This document shows positions 6,487-30,733 of a stretch of DNA of 42,885 bases, in pieces (within the stretch, counting starts at the first letter, position 1; the number at the start of each line of letters is the position of its first letter). Source of the DNA: Melioribacteraceae bacterium (GTDB lineage: Bacteria; Bacteroidota; Ignavibacteria; Ignavibacteriales; Melioribacteraceae); assembly GCA_021647785.1 (NCBI GenBank), contig JAKIUC010000037.1, positions 1 through 42,885 of the forward strand, in the 5' to 3' direction. Under the pieces are notes generated by a model, which worked only from the letters and a program-made list of their open reading frames with translations, searched no databases and was not told where the DNA came from. Position numbers and translations under genes: made by a program.

Positions 6487-6595
6487 AGATAATTAGGAAT
6501 ATTAATAGATGAACCGAGCATGTAAAAACAATTACACACATGAGCATGACAATATATGCGAGCACCATGTGACCGAAATAAACAATTATAGACAC

Positions 6596-7642
6596 ATGAA
6601 AATATTTATAAATATTGAAATAAGAATAACACTTTTGTTCTCAATGCTGATTTCCATTTGTCTGTTTGCTCAATCGGATCACACAAAGGTTGGAACAACT
6701 TCTGCAAACTTTTTGCAAATGGAAATTGGTGCTAGAGCCATTGGACTTGGTGGAGCCTATGTTGCTTTAGCAGATGATGCAACTTCATTATTCTGGAATT
6801 CAGCTGGAATTGGATTAGTTGAAAATGGGAATGCAGTTTATCAATTTGGTAGCCGATATGCTGACATTGCTCACCATTATGCTGGATTTGTTTATGGACT
6901 TGGTAATGATGATAAAATTGGAATAATGATTGACTATGTAGATGTTGGTGAGATGGAAATAACTACATTAAATGAACCTGATGGAACAGGGCAAAACTTT
7001 TCTGCTTCAAATGTTGCAATTGGTCTTTCATACGCACGCCAACTTACGGATAGAGTTTATGTTGGAGTTCTTGCAAAATATATTCAAGAAAATATTTGGA
7101 TGGAGAGTGCTACAGGATTTGCTGTGGATATTGGTGCACTCTATATTATTGAAGAGAATGGAATTAGAATTGGTATGAACCTTGCAAACCTTGGACCAGA
7201 TATGAAAATTAATGATGGTGCAAATATAGATTTTTATAAAGAAAAGGTTGATGGATATCCAGGAAGTCCAACACCAAAATCAACATTGGCAACAAAAACA
7301 TTTCCACTACCAATGGTCTTTAGTATGGGTTTTGCAATTGATTTAGTCGGAAGAAATTCCATTGTTATGCCTAATGTAGCTCATAAATTTCTTTTAGCAT
7401 TATCTGCAAACGATAGCTTTGATGCACCTTTCAGAGGCAATTTTGGAATTGAATATACTTGGCAAGATATTTTTTCATTACGTAGTGGATACCACATTGG
7501 ATATGACACTAAGGACTTATCGTTAGGTGTTGGTCTTAACTTAAAACAATTTACTTCGCTCGATGTTGTGCTTGATTACGTTTGGAATAATTATGGTGAC
7601 CTTGGTGCAATAAATGTTTTTACACTTGGAATTAATTTTTAA
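6596..7642 (+). CDS. PorV/PorQ-family outer-membrane barrel protein
   Basis: A 348-residue outer-membrane protein of the PorV/PorQ (UPF0164) family, the group that includes the type IX shuttle PorV. A signal peptide ends at LFAQ; the diagnostic N-terminus follows (TTSANFLQMEIGARAIGLGG, then ALADDATSLFWNSAGI), then beta-barrel strands ending ...FTLGINF. An upstream ATG in frame at 6509 would add 29 hydrophilic residues before the signal peptide, so 6596 is preferred. The 5' leader holds a possible hairpin: CACATG at 6537 pairs with CATGTG at 6566, and GCAT at 6544 with ATGC at 6556. In known systems such proteins escort cargo after outer-membrane passage. Here it may serve the 1058-residue protein just upstream; that role is inferred. 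Confidence 0.8.
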   Translation: MKIFINIEIRITLLFSMLISICLFAQSDHTKVGTTSANFLQMEIGARAIGLGGAYVALADDATSLFWNSAGIGLVENGNAVYQFGSRYADIAHHYAGFVYGLGNDDKIGIMIDYVDVGEMEITTLNEPDGTGQNFSASNVAIGLSYARQLTDRVYVGVLAKYIQENIWMESATGFAVDIGALYIIEENGIRIGMNLANLGPDMKINDGANIDFYKEKVDGYPGSPTPKSTLATKTFPLPMVFSMGFAIDLVGRNSIVMPNVAHKFLLALSANDSFDAPFRGNFGIEYTWQDIFSLRSGYHIGYDTKDLSLGVGLNLKQFTSLDVVLDYVWNNYGDLGAINVFTLGINF

Positions 7643-18882: not shown

Positions 18883-19656
18883 TTAAAACGCTAATGAAAG
18901 TGAAACCAATGGAGTACTATTTAAAAATGGAGTTACTTCATTTTGTTTATGCAAATCTGTTACAAACTTTCCTGTAAAATACCCAATCATTGCACCGAGA
19001 AAAACATCTGATGTCCAATGGTGATTCTGGTAAACACGAGATGCTGCTGTTAATAGTGCTGGAATAAATGCTGCTACTTTTAGAGCATCATTATTAGTAT
19101 TTGCTGCTAACACAGTTGATAGCGAAAAAGCTATGGTTGTATGCCCCGAAGGATGCGACCAATTTGAATCACTAAATGAGAAAGGAGAATAGGAAGTTGA
19201 AGGCAAACCAGTATTAGGTCGTGAACGTCCAAAAATAATTTTCAATCCACCAGTAATAGTAGCTGAGTAGAAGAACGATTGTCCAATTTCAAATCCAAGT
19301 TTTTTAGTTTTGGTATCATTCGATGTATAGCCGTGGATTAGCAGAAGTCCGCTTAAAGCAATAGATGGAATTGGTTCACCCCAATATCGCCCAGCTTCCA
19401 TAAGCCAATTCTTCTGGTTTGAATTAATATTTGCAACCTCATCTTTTATAGAATCATCAAATTGCATTATGCCAAAAGTAGTAACGGCAATTAAACCAAA
19501 TGTGATAAAATCATTTTTATCCCAACTAGCAGGAGCAGAATAGTAATCCCCAGTTTCAGACCAGAATTGTTTCCAATCATAATTATTTTGTGAATGGACT
19601 AATATTGGAAATAATAACATCACAATAAATAATCTGTATATATATAATTTTCTCAT
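18883..19656 (-). CDS. PAP2-family phosphatase
   Basis: A 257-residue membrane-associated acid phosphatase of the PAP2 superfamily, with an N-terminal signal or membrane segment (MLLFPILVHSQ). All three active-site motifs are intact: K139-X6-R146-P147 (KIIFGRSRP), P169-S170-G171-H172 (HPSGHT) and S206-R207-X5-H213-X3-D217 (SRVYQNHHWTSD). Likely substrates are undecaprenyl pyrophosphate or phosphatidate/lipid A phosphates on the periplasmic side. The reading frame could start further upstream at 19902, but the added 82 residues translate a dispersed repeat, so the ATG at 19656 is chosen. It is preceded by AGGTAAACAT, which itself belongs to the repeat. Confidence 0.85.
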   Translation of the reverse strand: MRKLYIYRLFIVMLLFPILVHSQNNYDWKQFWSETGDYYSAPASWDKNDFITFGLIAVTTFGIMQFDDSIKDEVANINSNQKNWLMEAGRYWGEPIPSIALSGLLLIHGYTSNDTKTKKLGFEIGQSFFYSATITGGLKIIFGRSRPNTGLPSTSYSPFSFSDSNWSHPSGHTTIAFSLSTVLAANTNNDALKVAAFIPALLTAASRVYQNHHWTSDVFLGAMIGYFTGKFVTDLHKQNEVTPFLNSTPLVSLSLAF

Positions 19657-19738
19657 ATGTTTACCTGTTCCGTCCTGCCCCGTCCTGTTCCGCTCTTTTT
19701 GCGGAATCTTTTTGCGGGGTCTTTTGCGGAATAATTTG
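19653..19738 (-). repeat. Dispersed 86-bp repeat, copy 1
   Basis: Read on the minus strand, this segment matches 28933-29018 (plus strand) at 84 of 86 positions. The left part has three blocks of the form YYCCGC followed by AAAAGA or AAAAAGA; the right part has GGAA, GGGG and GGAA blocks separated by CAGGAC or AGGAC. The two halves pair block by block (TTCC/GGAA, CCCC/GGGG, TTCCGC/GCGGAA) with purine-rich internal loops. Its last bases, AGGTAAACATATGA, include the start codon of the PAP2 gene. The adjoining 19739-19861 continues with other repeat remnants, including a 21-base motif at 19810-19830 that recurs at 28818-28838. Confidence 0.9.
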
Positions 19739-20934: not shown

Positions 20935-21852
20935 ATGAAAGCTTTACAAGAAACTACAAAATTCTTTTTAATCTCAATTTTTACAATTGCAGGATTACTA
21001 TTAAATTCGATTGATGTAATTGCGGGCGGGAATGTTTTATACGAAAGGAACTATTCCGTAAAATTAAATGAGGCACTATCGGTAAAAGTTAGTGCTGCTG
21101 ATGTTGAAATAGTTGGGTGGGATAAAAATGAAGTACTTATTATTGTTGAAGGGAAAGAGTCTATAAAAGAAAAATATGATTTTAGTTTTTCATATAAAGG
21201 GGGCTTTGTTGAAATAATTGCAGAGAGAAAATCGAGTTGGAGTCTTTGGAGTAGTTCAAACGGTTTTCGCGTTAAAGTTAAGGTGCCTACTGAGTTTAAT
21301 CCGGAGGTGAAAACATCTGGTGGTGATATAGAAATAAAAGATATTATTGGAAAAATAGCACTTAAAACTTCGGGAGGAGATATTGAAATAGAAAATTCAA
21401 AAGGTAATTTAGTTGCTAAAACTTCTGGGGGTGATATAGAACTAAATGAGTTTGTAGGAAGTTCTACATTAAAAACATCCGGCGGAGATATTGATGTGAA
21501 ACAAGCTGAGGGTAGTGTTGAAGCAAAAACTTCCGGAGGTGATGTTGATTTGATTGTTAATAGCGGCAAGGTTAATGCTGGAACAAGTGGTGGCGATATT
21601 TCTCTAAAATATAATGGCATAAACGAAGGTGTTGAGTTAAAGACTTCAGGTGGTAGTATTTCGGTTCTGTTACCGAGTGATTTTTCAGCCGATGTTTACT
21701 TGAAAACTTCTGGCGGCAGTATTAAAAATAATTTCTCCTCAAAAAAAATAAGAGAGGCTAGTAAATCAAAATTTGAAGGGAAGTACAATAATGGCGGGGT
21801 TCTATTTAGTGCGAAAACATCTGGTGGTTCAATTTATATAAATGAGAAATAA
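20935..21852 (+). CDS. DUF4097-family beta-strand repeat protein
   Basis: A 305-residue exported protein: residues 1-30 are a signal peptide, and the rest is a DUF4097-type stack of short beta-strand repeats. From about residue 120, nine or ten units of 17-22 residues repeat the core TSGGDI or TSGGSI (for example ALKTSGGDIEIENSKGN), so the chain should form a right-handed beta-solenoid or bactofilin-like stack. The repeats are degenerate at the DNA level, so this is not a recent tandem expansion. Relatives are often called putative adhesins, with little direct evidence. A GGAG Shine-Dalgarno sequence (20925-20928) supports the ATG. The gene stands alone, flanked by repeat-rich spacers. Confidence 0.85.
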   Translation: MKALQETTKFFLISIFTIAGLLLNSIDVIAGGNVLYERNYSVKLNEALSVKVSAADVEIVGWDKNEVLIIVEGKESIKEKYDFSFSYKGGFVEIIAERKSSWSLWSSSNGFRVKVKVPTEFNPEVKTSGGDIEIKDIIGKIALKTSGGDIEIENSKGNLVAKTSGGDIELNEFVGSSTLKTSGGDIDVKQAEGSVEAKTSGGDVDLIVNSGKVNAGTSGGDISLKYNGINEGVELKTSGGSISVLLPSDFSADVYLKTSGGSIKNNFSSKKIREASKSKFEGKYNNGGVLFSAKTSGGSIYINEK

Positions 21853-28639: not shown

Positions 28640-28932
28640 ATTTTACGATTCCTAATATGAGATTAAGAAAAAAAACGTAGAGACATTCCGAGGAATATCC
28701 GCTTTTAATATGCAAGGTTTCAACATCGAAGGTTTGATTAAAAAAATATAAATAGATGAAACCGTCATTATGGATTTTTTAATACACTTCCGTAGGAATG
28801 CCTTTGGTAAAGGCGATGTCTGTGAGACTCCTACGGAGATTATAAAAAACAATTGTAGAACGAAAGTCCTTCCTGTCCCTTGTGGATTTCGTTTCTATCT
28901 AATAGCAAGAGCGAATCAGGAGATTCGCTCTA
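28640..28932. repeat. Cluster of palindromic elements upstream of pgi
   Basis: This spacer holds several hairpin-forming repeats and no gene. CCGTAGGA (28790-28797) pairs with TCCTACGG (28829-28836), enclosing a smaller hairpin GCCTTT/AAAGGC (28800-28814). AGAGCGAATC (28908-28917) pairs perfectly with GATTCGCTCT (28922-28931) around AGGA. AGAACGAAA near 28857 pairs with TTTCGTTTCT near 28887. An ATTCCGAGGAAT hairpin lies near 28685. The 21-base motif at 28818-28838 recurs near 19.8 and 20.8 kb. Confidence 0.8.
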
Positions 28933-29018
28933 CAAATTATTCCGCAAAAGACCCCGCAAAAAGATTCCGCAAAAAGAGCGGAACAGGACGGGGCAGGATG
29001 GAACAGGTAAACAGATGA
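28933..29018 (+). repeat. Dispersed 86-bp repeat, copy 2
   Basis: Matches the minus-strand copy at 19653-19738 at 84 of 86 positions; the two differences are T for C within GGATGG and G for T within ACAGATGA. It ends 27 bases before the pgi start and places an AGGT and an ATG (29015) upstream of that gene. That ATG opens an eight-codon frame ending at TAA 29039-29041. Confidence 0.9.
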
Positions 29019-29044: not shown

Positions 29045-30733
29045 ATGAACAACGTAAAATTAAAACTCGAAAAGTATGAAAAAGAATTTTCCAATAAAAT
29101 GGATGAACTTAAAAACCAAAATATCATCTCACGAATTTGGGAAAAAGATTACACAGTATGGCGTAACGACCCAACAGAAATAAGCAACAGACTTGGATGG
29201 CTTGACTGCTCGGATGTGGCGAAAACTAAATTTGATGAAATAGCTGAGTTTGTTGATGAAATAAAATCAGAAGGCTTTACACACGCTCTACTACTGGGGA
29301 TGGGAGGTTCATCACTTGCACCGGAAGTATTTAGAAAAATATTTGGTGTAGAGAGTGGATATTTGGATTTATCCATTTTGGATAGCACTCATCCAGACCA
29401 AGTACAAAGTATGATTGATAAATGTAATTCCCATAAAACTCTATTTATTGTTTCCACAAAATCTGGCGGTACTGTCGAGACAATTTCATTTATGAAACGT
29501 TTTTATAATACTACAATTGCTTCTGTTGGCAAAGATAATGTTGGCAATCACTTTGTTGCAATTACTGACCCTGGTAGTGGATTAGAAGAAATGGCAAAGA
29601 ATTTAAATTTTAGAAAGACGTTTATCAATGACCCCAATATTGGCGGGAGGTATTCGGCACTCTCTCTCTTTGGTCTTGTACCAGCAGCATTAATTGGAGT
29701 TGACTTAAATAGATTTATCGGGTTAGTCGATATTGCAATTACAGAATCTAAGAATGAAGTAAATACAACTGCAAAAATTGGTGTAGCACTTGGCGTGCTT
29801 GCTGAAAGCGGAGTTGACAAGGTTACATATATTCTCTCTAATGAATTAAAGCCTTTCGGAGCTTGGGTTGAGCAGTTGATTGCAGAAAGTACAGGTAAAG
29901 ATGGCAAAGGAATTCTACCAATTGAAGGAGAGGAACTGCTTACTCCATCTGAATATAGTAATGACCGTCTATTTGTTCATATCCATTTAAAGGATGATAG
30001 CTCTAACCAAAACAAAGTTAGAGAACTGGAAAAATCTGGATTCCCTGTAATTGAAATTGAATTTGAATCTCTTTATCAATTAGGTGCACAATTCTTTATT
30101 TGGGAAATGGCTACGGTTATTGCAAGTTGGGTAACAGAGATTCAGCCATACGACCAGCCAAATGTTGAAGAAGCAAAAATTATTGGCAGAAGAATGATGA
30201 AGCAATATTTAGAAGAAGGGAAACTAACAAAACTCACTCCAACACTGGATGAGAATGGAATAAAAGTTTTTGCTGATAGTACAGTTGCTAAATTATCAGA
30301 AGTAATTCCGCAATTTATGAAAAATATAAATGTTGGAGAGAACGAAATACTTGGCAGAAGCTACGTTGCAATTCAGGCATACGTAAATATGGATGAAGAG
30401 GCAGAAGCTGCACTTCAAAAATTAAGGACTAAGATTCAGAAGGAATACAAAGTAGCTACTACTATTGGCTTTGGTCCTCGTTTCTTACACTCTACAGGTC
30501 AGTTGCACAAAGGAGATGCTGGCAACGGTTTGTTTATCCAAATTGTTTCGCAAAATAAAACTGATGTTGAAATACCGAATGAAGCTGGTAAAGATAAATC
30601 TGATATGACTTTTAACGTGTTGCTAAATGCACAAGCACTTGGTGATAGAGCTGCATTGCTCGATAATAAACGGAGTGTAATCCGATTTGATATTTCTGAA
30701 AATATAGCTGAGGATATTGGGAAAATATTTTGA
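29045..30733 (+). CDS. pgi: Glucose-6-phosphate isomerase (Tal-Pgi type)
   Basis: A 562-residue cytoplasmic isomerase interconverting glucose 6-phosphate and fructose 6-phosphate. Sugar-phosphate (SIS) binding motifs are visible: LLGMGGSSLAPEVFR, STKSGGTVETISF (the SxxSGxTxET loop), and GGRYSALSLFGLVPAALIG, the PGI signature region. Near the C-terminus GPRFLHSTGQLHKGDAGNGL carries the conserved His and Lys. The sequence resembles, from memory, the PGI half of transaldolase-PGI fusion proteins more than the classical enterobacterial enzyme; no transaldolase half is present here. A Shine-Dalgarno-like GAGAGAAG lies just before the ATG. The upstream spacer is a stack of palindromic repeats. Confidence 0.88.
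   Translation: MNNVKLKLEKYEKEFSNKMDELKNQNIISRIWEKDYTVWRNDPTEISNRLGWLDCSDVAKTKFDEIAEFVDEIKSEGFTHALLLGMGGSSLAPEVFRKIFGVESGYLDLSILDSTHPDQVQSMIDKCNSHKTLFIVSTKSGGTVETISFMKRFYNTTIASVGKDNVGNHFVAITDPGSGLEEMAKNLNFRKTFINDPNIGGRYSALSLFGLVPAALIGVDLNRFIGLVDIAITESKNEVNTTAKIGVALGVLAESGVDKVTYILSNELKPFGAWVEQLIAESTGKDGKGILPIEGEELLTPSEYSNDRLFVHIHLKDDSSNQNKVRELEKSGFPVIEIEFESLYQLGAQFFIWEMATVIASWVTEIQPYDQPNVEEAKIIGRRMMKQYLEEGKLTKLTPTLDENGIKVFADSTVAKLSEVIPQFMKNINVGENEILGRSYVAIQAYVNMDEEAEAALQKLRTKIQKEYKVATTIGFGPRFLHSTGQLHKGDAGNGLFIQIVSQNKTDVEIPNEAGKDKSDMTFNVLLNAQALGDRAALLDNKRSVIRFDISENIAEDIGKIF

Follow-up and report, generated by a model that had tools for sequence, protein, structure and literature searches.

The 86-bp repeat that occurs twice in the window (the whole 42,885-nucleotide stretch analysed here, contig C86 of the 4.25-Mb genome G000) is three copies of a small mobile hairpin, U, one inside another, in the tail of a second element, X. 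We think it probable that the stack formed by insertion of 23-bp non-autonomous hairpins into each other's loops, within the 3′ end of a non-autonomous X that inserts at NTGA, most durably at start codons. Each U would have inserted into the loop of the preceding U inside the X 3′ end, and X itself would insert at NTGA sites, between N and TGA. Such insertions would be most durable at start codons because the last base of X is A, so that the gene is displaced downstream behind a rebuilt ATGA with its coding sequence intact.

The two copies of the repeat in the window

The copies, at 28933-29018 on the plus strand and 19653-19738 on the minus strand, differ at 2 of 86 bases (T versus C at 28999, and G versus T in the base before ATG), which recovers the 84 of 86 agreeing bases of an earlier note on this DNA; a repeat search of the window scored the pair as 90 nt with 97% complementarity. 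Both end in AGGTAAACA-N-ATGA, as had been described. The earlier note had also taken the minus-copy ATG for the start of a PAP2 phosphatase and the plus-copy ATG for the opening of an eight-codon leader before pgi; we find a 257-codon PAP2 gene (Pfam PF01569, 4.7e-23) opening at 19656 and an 8-codon open reading frame (ORF) at the plus copy. The features of the window are as follows.

28756-29014, plus strand: composite X upstream of pgi, enlarged by inserted hairpins; its ends (left ATGAAAC..., right ...TAAACAG) resemble the X consensus, and it is flush with the ATG at 29015
28855-28933, plus strand: hairpin pair inside X with GTAG at its left and CTAC at its right end, a REPIN-like layout
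28940-29007, plus strand: outer unit U1, arms 28940-28951 and 28998-29007
28952-28997, plus strand: middle unit U2, of CC/GG type, arms 28952-28964 and 28988-28997
28965-28987, plus strand: inner unit U3, TTCCGCAAAAAGAGCGGAACAGG, 23 bp
29005-29007, plus strand: AGG within the CAGG tail of U1, located −10 to −8 relative to the ATG, the Shine-Dalgarno position
29015-29017, plus strand: ATG abutting X, opening only 8 codons; pgi starts at 29045
19664-19731, minus strand: second three-unit stack (U2 19674-19719, U3 19684-19706)
18883-19656, minus strand: PAP2 phosphatase gene, whose ATG (19656-19654) abuts the element
6509-6595, plus strand: intact X free of units (70.5 bits), one of the 16 seeds of the X model

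The minus-strand stack looks to sit in the tail of a decayed composite. The intact X at 6509-6595 is flush with the ATG at 6596 of a 348-codon ORF, which is in frame with a longer ORF starting inside X. Elsewhere in the window, the ORF 20935-21852 contains, at 21309-21845, five direct repeats of 33 nt, of which four are spaced 54 nt.

Element X is dispersed and patchily distributed

The X consensus is about 86 bp, TGAAMCGAG...AATTATAAACANA, with the layout ATGAAACGAGCATGTAAAA...TTTACACACAAG.GGATGATTATAA.TGCGAGTTCCATCTGACAAAAA...AATTATAAACAN (78-88 bp in the plain form); U sits in its 3′ end, and U-free copies exist that also stand at start codons. Its motif TAAACANATGA occurs 30 times in our sample, 12 times opening an ORF of at least 100 codons, compared with 3-11 matches and 0-2 such ORFs for six permuted versions.

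A sequence-only model of X was built from 16 seed copies found by patterns that included AT or ATGA after the end; the seeds exclude the 20 copies of G037 and the 3 of G019. Searched against 39 genomes, it placed X at 12, 13, 13, 15 and 7 positions in the five genomes of the genus (7-15 each), with 4 matches in G019 and 37 in G037, a member of another family; of the remaining 32 genomes, 27 had no match and five one weak match each (E 0.003-0.0095). The search gave 106 matches; 80 were found in 85 sources, and removal of 6 duplicate places and 5 partial copies left the 69 copies tabulated. The exact 3′-end pattern of X was present in 9 of 164 genomes of the order, belonging to 2 of 68 genera, with 25 copies in G059 alone, and in two viral contigs, in one of which it abuts an ORF with a phage tail-chaperone domain. 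From the sequences compared, this patchy distribution fits a horizontally moving element.

Some insertions are lineage-specific. At fliJ, the one gene for which an intact X could be set against empty sites (by eye), X lies exactly before the ATG in G003 and none was seen in G001, G002 or G004; G000 carries a hairpin-loaded X derivative there. The PAP2 gene of G000 abuts a composite, and its orthologues in G002 and G004 are without the insert of about 200 bp; likewise a glycosyltransferase gene of G000 abuts a composite that its orthologues in G001 and G004 do not have. At one locus (L214) two X copies stand in tandem, which is possible because X itself begins with NTGA.

In G037 (L305, L306, L307, L309, L313, L316) and G062 (L339) there is a short X subtype whose middle is replaced by a CCCGATTNATCGGG-like hairpin, and in L339 this hairpin itself holds a further nested hairpin. 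Two neighbouring ABC permease genes each begin precisely at an X copy in both G001 (L171) and G004 (L251), which may reflect an ancient double insertion or hint that X behaves like a cassette.

X often stands flush with start codons

Taking gene starts from ORFs and not from annotation, X is flush with an ATG in 51 of the 69 copies, and in another 3 the ATG lies between −1 and +7. Of the flush copies, 39 open an ORF of 100 codons or more (42 when the near ones are counted), leaving 27 of the 69 that open none. Since the model was seeded through patterns ending in AT or ATGA, the 20 G037 copies, which did not enter it, are a fairer test of this position: 14 of them are flush, and 8 open 100 or more codons, compared with 328 of 2079 random ATGA sites (p 0.009). 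In a set defined by an end motif that does not contain ATG, 61 of 66 copies are followed by ATG and 38 open 100 or more codons (p 4e-14 against the same 328/2079 background). The ORFs that begin at X include hisA (L324, where the domain starts at residue 2), a racemase, an integrase, a kinase, a sigma factor and HycI. Not all X insertions are at start codons: near pgi, the ATGA that X abuts precedes the real start by 30 bp.

Two readings of this position in terms of translated sequence were set aside. A conserved leader peptide was rejected because indels of 1-2 bases put the copies in different reading frames; of the 38 ORF copies of the motif-defined set, 22 have a stop within X in the left frame, and in 9 the left frame is that of the gene. 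Translational coupling through ATGA was also dropped, a stop lying in the overlapping TGA in only 4 of 38 copies and 7 nt before it in 3.

A fixed position flush with start codons could also be expected of a conserved 5′ leader, that is, of a cis-regulatory RNA of a regulon in whose tolerant spacer DNA hairpins have gathered, and some X sites (those at the two ABC permease genes and at one HlyD-like gene) are common to G001 and G004. We regard this as unlikely. The genes behind X are functionally unrelated: 17 of 20 abutting ORFs have Pfam matches, and the functions differ except for two ABC permeases and two histidine kinases. A leader also accords poorly with occurrence in only 2 of 68 genera, with the differences at fliJ among congeners, with the X-X tandem and with copies that open no ORF. 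Nor is there a consensus structure: RNAalifold found no conserved RNA structure for X, and the RNA-structure reading was dropped on that account. Single-strand DNA folding of X gave no strong fold (z −1.45, −1.57 and 0.18). Searches with Rfam gave no gathering matches in the whole window and, in six X-bearing loci, four sub-threshold matches, none of them at X.

The joint of X suggests insertion within NTGA

On its left X follows a variable base, N, and on its right it precedes TGA. The base before TGAA at the left end was A in 57, G in 5, T in 3 and C in 2 of 67 model-based copies (two of the 69, with the left part missing, were left out). This first base is thus other than A in 10 of 67 copies, compared with 3 changes among 268 cells at the next four positions (p 1e-5). 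The corresponding count in the motif-defined set, 11/66 versus 2/264, is biased because the left-end motif fixes positions 2-10, and the model-based count is the better one. The rebuilt start has A as its fourth base in 37 of 38 (motif set) or 37 of 39 (model set) ORF copies; among ATG-initiated ORFs of G000 the fourth base is A in 268 of 420 (p 3e-6, with the X copies drawn from several genomes). On these sequences, the simplest reading would be that X inserts between N and TGA of NTGA and that its final A restores ATGA; duplication of a TGA target would give the same picture.

At the left base, G is found mostly before long ORFs (4 of 5 copies, two of which look orthologous), C in 0 of 2 and T in 1 of 3, this last copy (L269) being compatible with a TTG start. 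In the motif-defined set C or T occurs in 7 of 28 non-ORF and 0 of 38 ORF copies (p 0.0015), and in the model-based set in 4 of 26 and 1 of 41 (p 0.07), so the link between the left base and the presence of an ORF is uncertain. Tentatively, and with some reservation, we put forward the idea that X targets the start codon as such, joining between the first base and TGA of NTGA and carrying the A with it, and so would turn GTG or TTG into ATG. Such an insertion would be neutral for the protein while the whole initiation region is replaced, and nested hairpins would then tune that region by adding a Shine-Dalgarno sequence.

U hairpins are nested in one another

The U unit is a 23-bp hairpin (range 22-24 bp), YYCCGC-AAAAAGA-xCGGRR-CAGG, made up of a YYCCGC arm, an A-rich loop, an xCGGRR arm and a CAGG tail. 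By comparison with other genomic copies, the stack parses as TTCCGCAAAAGA[CCCCGCAAAAAGA[TTCCGCAAAAAGAGCGGAACAGG]ACGGGGCAGG]AYGGAACAGG. The facing, pairing blocks that the earlier note had seen inside the repeat are therefore real, as the left and right arms of three mutually nested hairpins; likewise its mobile palindrome survives as the 23-bp unit, three of which are nested in the 86-bp repeat, and not as one element of 86 bp. A single host site, CTACAAATTA|TAAACA, is seen with every depth of nesting.

No unit (4 copies): L104, L107, L122, L124
One unit (4 copies): L108, L109, L116, L117
Two units (4 copies): L102, L103, L111, L113
Three units (1 copy): the plus copy of the window

Two more triple stacks, with other sequence upstream, are the minus copy of the window and one in L122 that is without some bases of the outer right arm. 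Inner and outer units are of different stem type (CC/GG inside TT/AA), which indicates that a whole unit was inserted and not that arms were duplicated. The insertion site within the loop is not fixed, since two outer hairpins of L126 received their insert elsewhere in it (CCGCAA|). AGA is followed by G in each of the four depth-1 copies and by A in most of the nested outer units, which leaves the exact joint ambiguous by one base.

In a 796-kb sample of G000, chosen to be unit-rich, 65 unit candidates were found, of which 7 were dropped for low similarity and 58 innermost units kept, at least one of these (L106:2555) looking like chance. The innermost copies lie inside other repeats in 45 of 58 cases: T-REP, another hairpin family, has 13 in its loops and U or U-like hairpins have 12, two sites of X account for 12 and 3, and a fifth recurrent site for 5. 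The other 13 lie elsewhere. On whether genomic copies cluster before start codons, which the earlier note had proposed to check, most units are elsewhere, only the 12 lying directly in the X-tail site, and it is X that has the flush position.

T-REP itself is mostly GTRCC...GGYAC, often followed by GAAATTATGGTAA. On contig C103 of G004 (L355, L186, L187) and in L116, L121, L125 and L127 of G000 it takes the form of 5-bp hypervariable hairpins with a constant TTATGGTAA tail; the stems include GTACC/GGTAC, GCTCC/GGAGC, ACTCC/GGAGT and GTCCC/GGGAC, the stem sequence being free and the tail fixed, and the hairpins form an array around a pair of RAYT-like genes. By eye, the orthologous pgi intergenic region of G001 and G004 (L155 and L156) shows nesting among palindromes of other kinds, CGTC-type GTCATTCC...GGAATGAC hairpins lying within a longer inverted repeat.

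Statistical support for the U hairpin

Allowing up to two mismatches, the unit pattern has 41 matches genome-wide in G000 and a reversed control pattern none. That the paired blocks covary is borne out: among 25 unique exact-core units, 21 have complementary bases at both outer pairs, compared with a mean of 8.8 when the 3′ dinucleotides are permuted, and none of 10,000 shuffles reaches 21. In an alignment of 23 rows (two of the 25 sequences, 19 nt with a different loop, were left out), 92.0% of cells are paired versus 86.6% after shuffling, and the covariation score is 0.229 versus 0.122, neither value being equalled in 500 shuffles. Two of the five alignment measures do not favour the hairpin (246 of 500 shuffles score as high for two-sided-change pairs and 500 of 500 for pair types); three of the six stem pairs are invariant, and the loop-proximal pair is disrupted in 8 of the 23 rows. 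Sliding the partners by −1 gave a covariation score of 0.232, but just 51% of cells were then paired. Palindromes are prone to templated correction, which by itself would give covariation, and the covariation of U thus shows upkeep of the hairpin and not RNA function.

The same process, acting as quasipalindrome or slippage copying, might have let the nested stack grow in place without units arriving from elsewhere. It would produce the covariation observed, and loop lengths do vary. We nevertheless judge growth in place to be decidedly unlikely, since the inner CC/GG units found within TT/AA units also exist as dispersed single copies, U occurs in at least four unrelated host contexts, and the outer hairpins of L126 were entered at another loop position.

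Among tetranucleotides directly after 6-bp hairpins in the G000 sample, CAGG ranks first (27/2478, or 109 per 10,000, against a median of 14), but it is not over-represented in 156 kb of G004 (1/602) or 148 kb of G001 (1/301). CTAC, the complement of the REP tag GTAG, ranks second in G004, first in G001 and second in G000. With up to two mismatches, the U pattern has no match in the four congeners of G000 and one each in 3 of 53 other relatives; the latter is the level of the reversed control, which has one match in each of two genomes. The view that U is absent from the congeners was ruled out by the 8-kb contig C103 of G004, which has four U-like units of a slightly longer variant missed by the pattern, all in hairpin loops, compared with none in 156 kb of other G004 sequence. 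A wider collection of genome contigs gave seven matches, of which two (L067, L069) look like real units; the other five (three Lachnospiraceae, one Oscillospiraceae and one Clostridiales MAG) were rejected on unpaired outer bases, as was one sequence found three times in viral contigs.

U probably adds a Shine-Dalgarno sequence to X

Shine-Dalgarno sequences are in use in G000: 180 of 420 ORFs of 200 or more codons have Shine-Dalgarno-like 4-mers at −17 to −4, compared with 37 and 42 in two upstream control windows, and the ORF starts show a G peak at −9. Such a 4-mer is found at the X end in 1 of 38 ORF copies; upstream of the X left end a native Shine-Dalgarno sequence is not significantly enriched (12/38 versus 7/38, p 0.29). 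A U that enters X at AATTA|TAAACA leaves AGG at −10 to −8 of the ATG, where that G peak falls, and so, to judge from this geometry, probably restores the ribosome-binding site that the X end is without. The earlier note's proposal that the repeat supplies a translation start thus stands for the link to the ribosome-binding site and start codon, for which the unit gives the AGG, while the ATG goes with the host element X. Eight X tails that bear units open ORFs of at least 100 codons, including those of PAP2, a FliJ protein, a laccase-family protein and two glycosyltransferases, and in G037, of a different family, an X copy has, at the corresponding position, another hairpin with this same tail, TTCCGCCTGAGGCGGACAGG. 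Against an adaptive reading of the AGG, several copies of the same geometry have an ATG that opens only 8-9 codons.

For the RNA control function that the earlier note had considered, we found no direct evidence: the RNA fold of the stack is only modestly better than shuffles on the plus strand (z −1.75 and −2.50) and much better on the minus strand (z −4.82). It is highly improbable that the 86-bp repeat serves as an RNA control element, such as a translation switch, and has spread along with its function: a hairpin stack does lie directly upstream of AGG and ATG, and unit-bearing X tails do open long ORFs, but most units are elsewhere (T-REP loops alone hold 13 of the 58), the sense-strand fold is modest and stack depth varies freely from 0 to 3.

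Candidate mobilisers

Y1 genes are present in all five examined genomes of the genus. The four U-like units on C103 of G004 surround two RAYT-like (Y1 transposase) genes, which on this arrangement may be the best lead to a U mobiliser. The Y1 loci of G000 (six matches in five places) have no U in the surrounding 1.5 kb or so, and none of 21 Y1 locus records from the genus contains paired X ends. We infer that transposition is direct, and that U is moved by a single-strand mobiliser of HUH/Y1-like type. At L064, on contig C40 of G000, repeated palindromes bearing AAAAGCCCAACTTTT arms lie on both sides of a Y1 gene (by eye).

Relation to known elements

U resembles REP elements and X resembles a MITE. 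Like REP/REPIN (RAYT/TnpA_REP, Y1 HUH), U is a short palindrome with a tetranucleotide at one foot, covarying stems and many dispersed copies (58 innermost units in the 796-kb sample), and it shares with them the presence of Y1 genes in its genus and, on C103, of U-like units around RAYT-like genes. Unlike REP, it nests in its own loop, is not found near the Y1 loci of G000 and is tagged CCTG/CAGG. Nor was it seen as two inverted copies in the manner of a REPIN, being single or nested by eye; the separate GTAG/CTAC pair in X does have the REPIN layout. In the portions of PMC3733652 that define REP, the tag is GTAG or CGTC; we therefore call U a REP-like element and do not file it as REP. The same portions describe GTAG-23 of T. 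roseum and GTAG-15 of A. variabilis as REPs inserted in palindromes, which like U lie inside another palindrome; self-nesting, a depth series or a link to start codons is not described there.

U also shares small size and mobility with hairpins of organelle DNA, which have other sequences and loops. The GC clusters of yeast mtDNA nest, and Elhai reportedly described in 2008 cyanobacterial SDRs that are very small repeats inserted at precise sites. By the excerpted accounts, yeast GC clusters are small mobile hairpins (PMC4478555), palindromes of Volvox carteri organelles are inserted in one another (PMC2670323), and SDR5 is precisely inserted in HIP1 (PMC4390886), the likeness of U to SDRs lying in very small repeats at precise sites.

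X is non-autonomous and dispersed and has lineage-specific insertions; as terminal inverted repeats it shows only the imperfect arms TGAAACGAG and CGAGTTCCA. Its nearest analogue in the material consulted, Correia elements, which are bacterial MITEs, are given in the main text of PMC10969869 as short, non-autonomous and often immediately upstream of genes; X differs from what is said of them there in abutting the start codon itself and seemingly rebuilding it, and the term "start codon" does not occur in that main text. The literature searched, a limited collection mostly at the level of titles, held no description of a mobile element flush with start codons or of CAGG-tagged hairpins. X is apparently a small mobile element without earlier description, and its placement at start codons is the novel part.

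At a single site, the series of none, one, two and three units records successive insertions of a 23-bp element in their order, and opens the movement of such tiny hairpins to direct test. If our reading of X is correct, a selfish element targeting start codons and then restoring them could live harmlessly in gene-dense bacterial DNA, and would rewrite the translation initiation of many genes.
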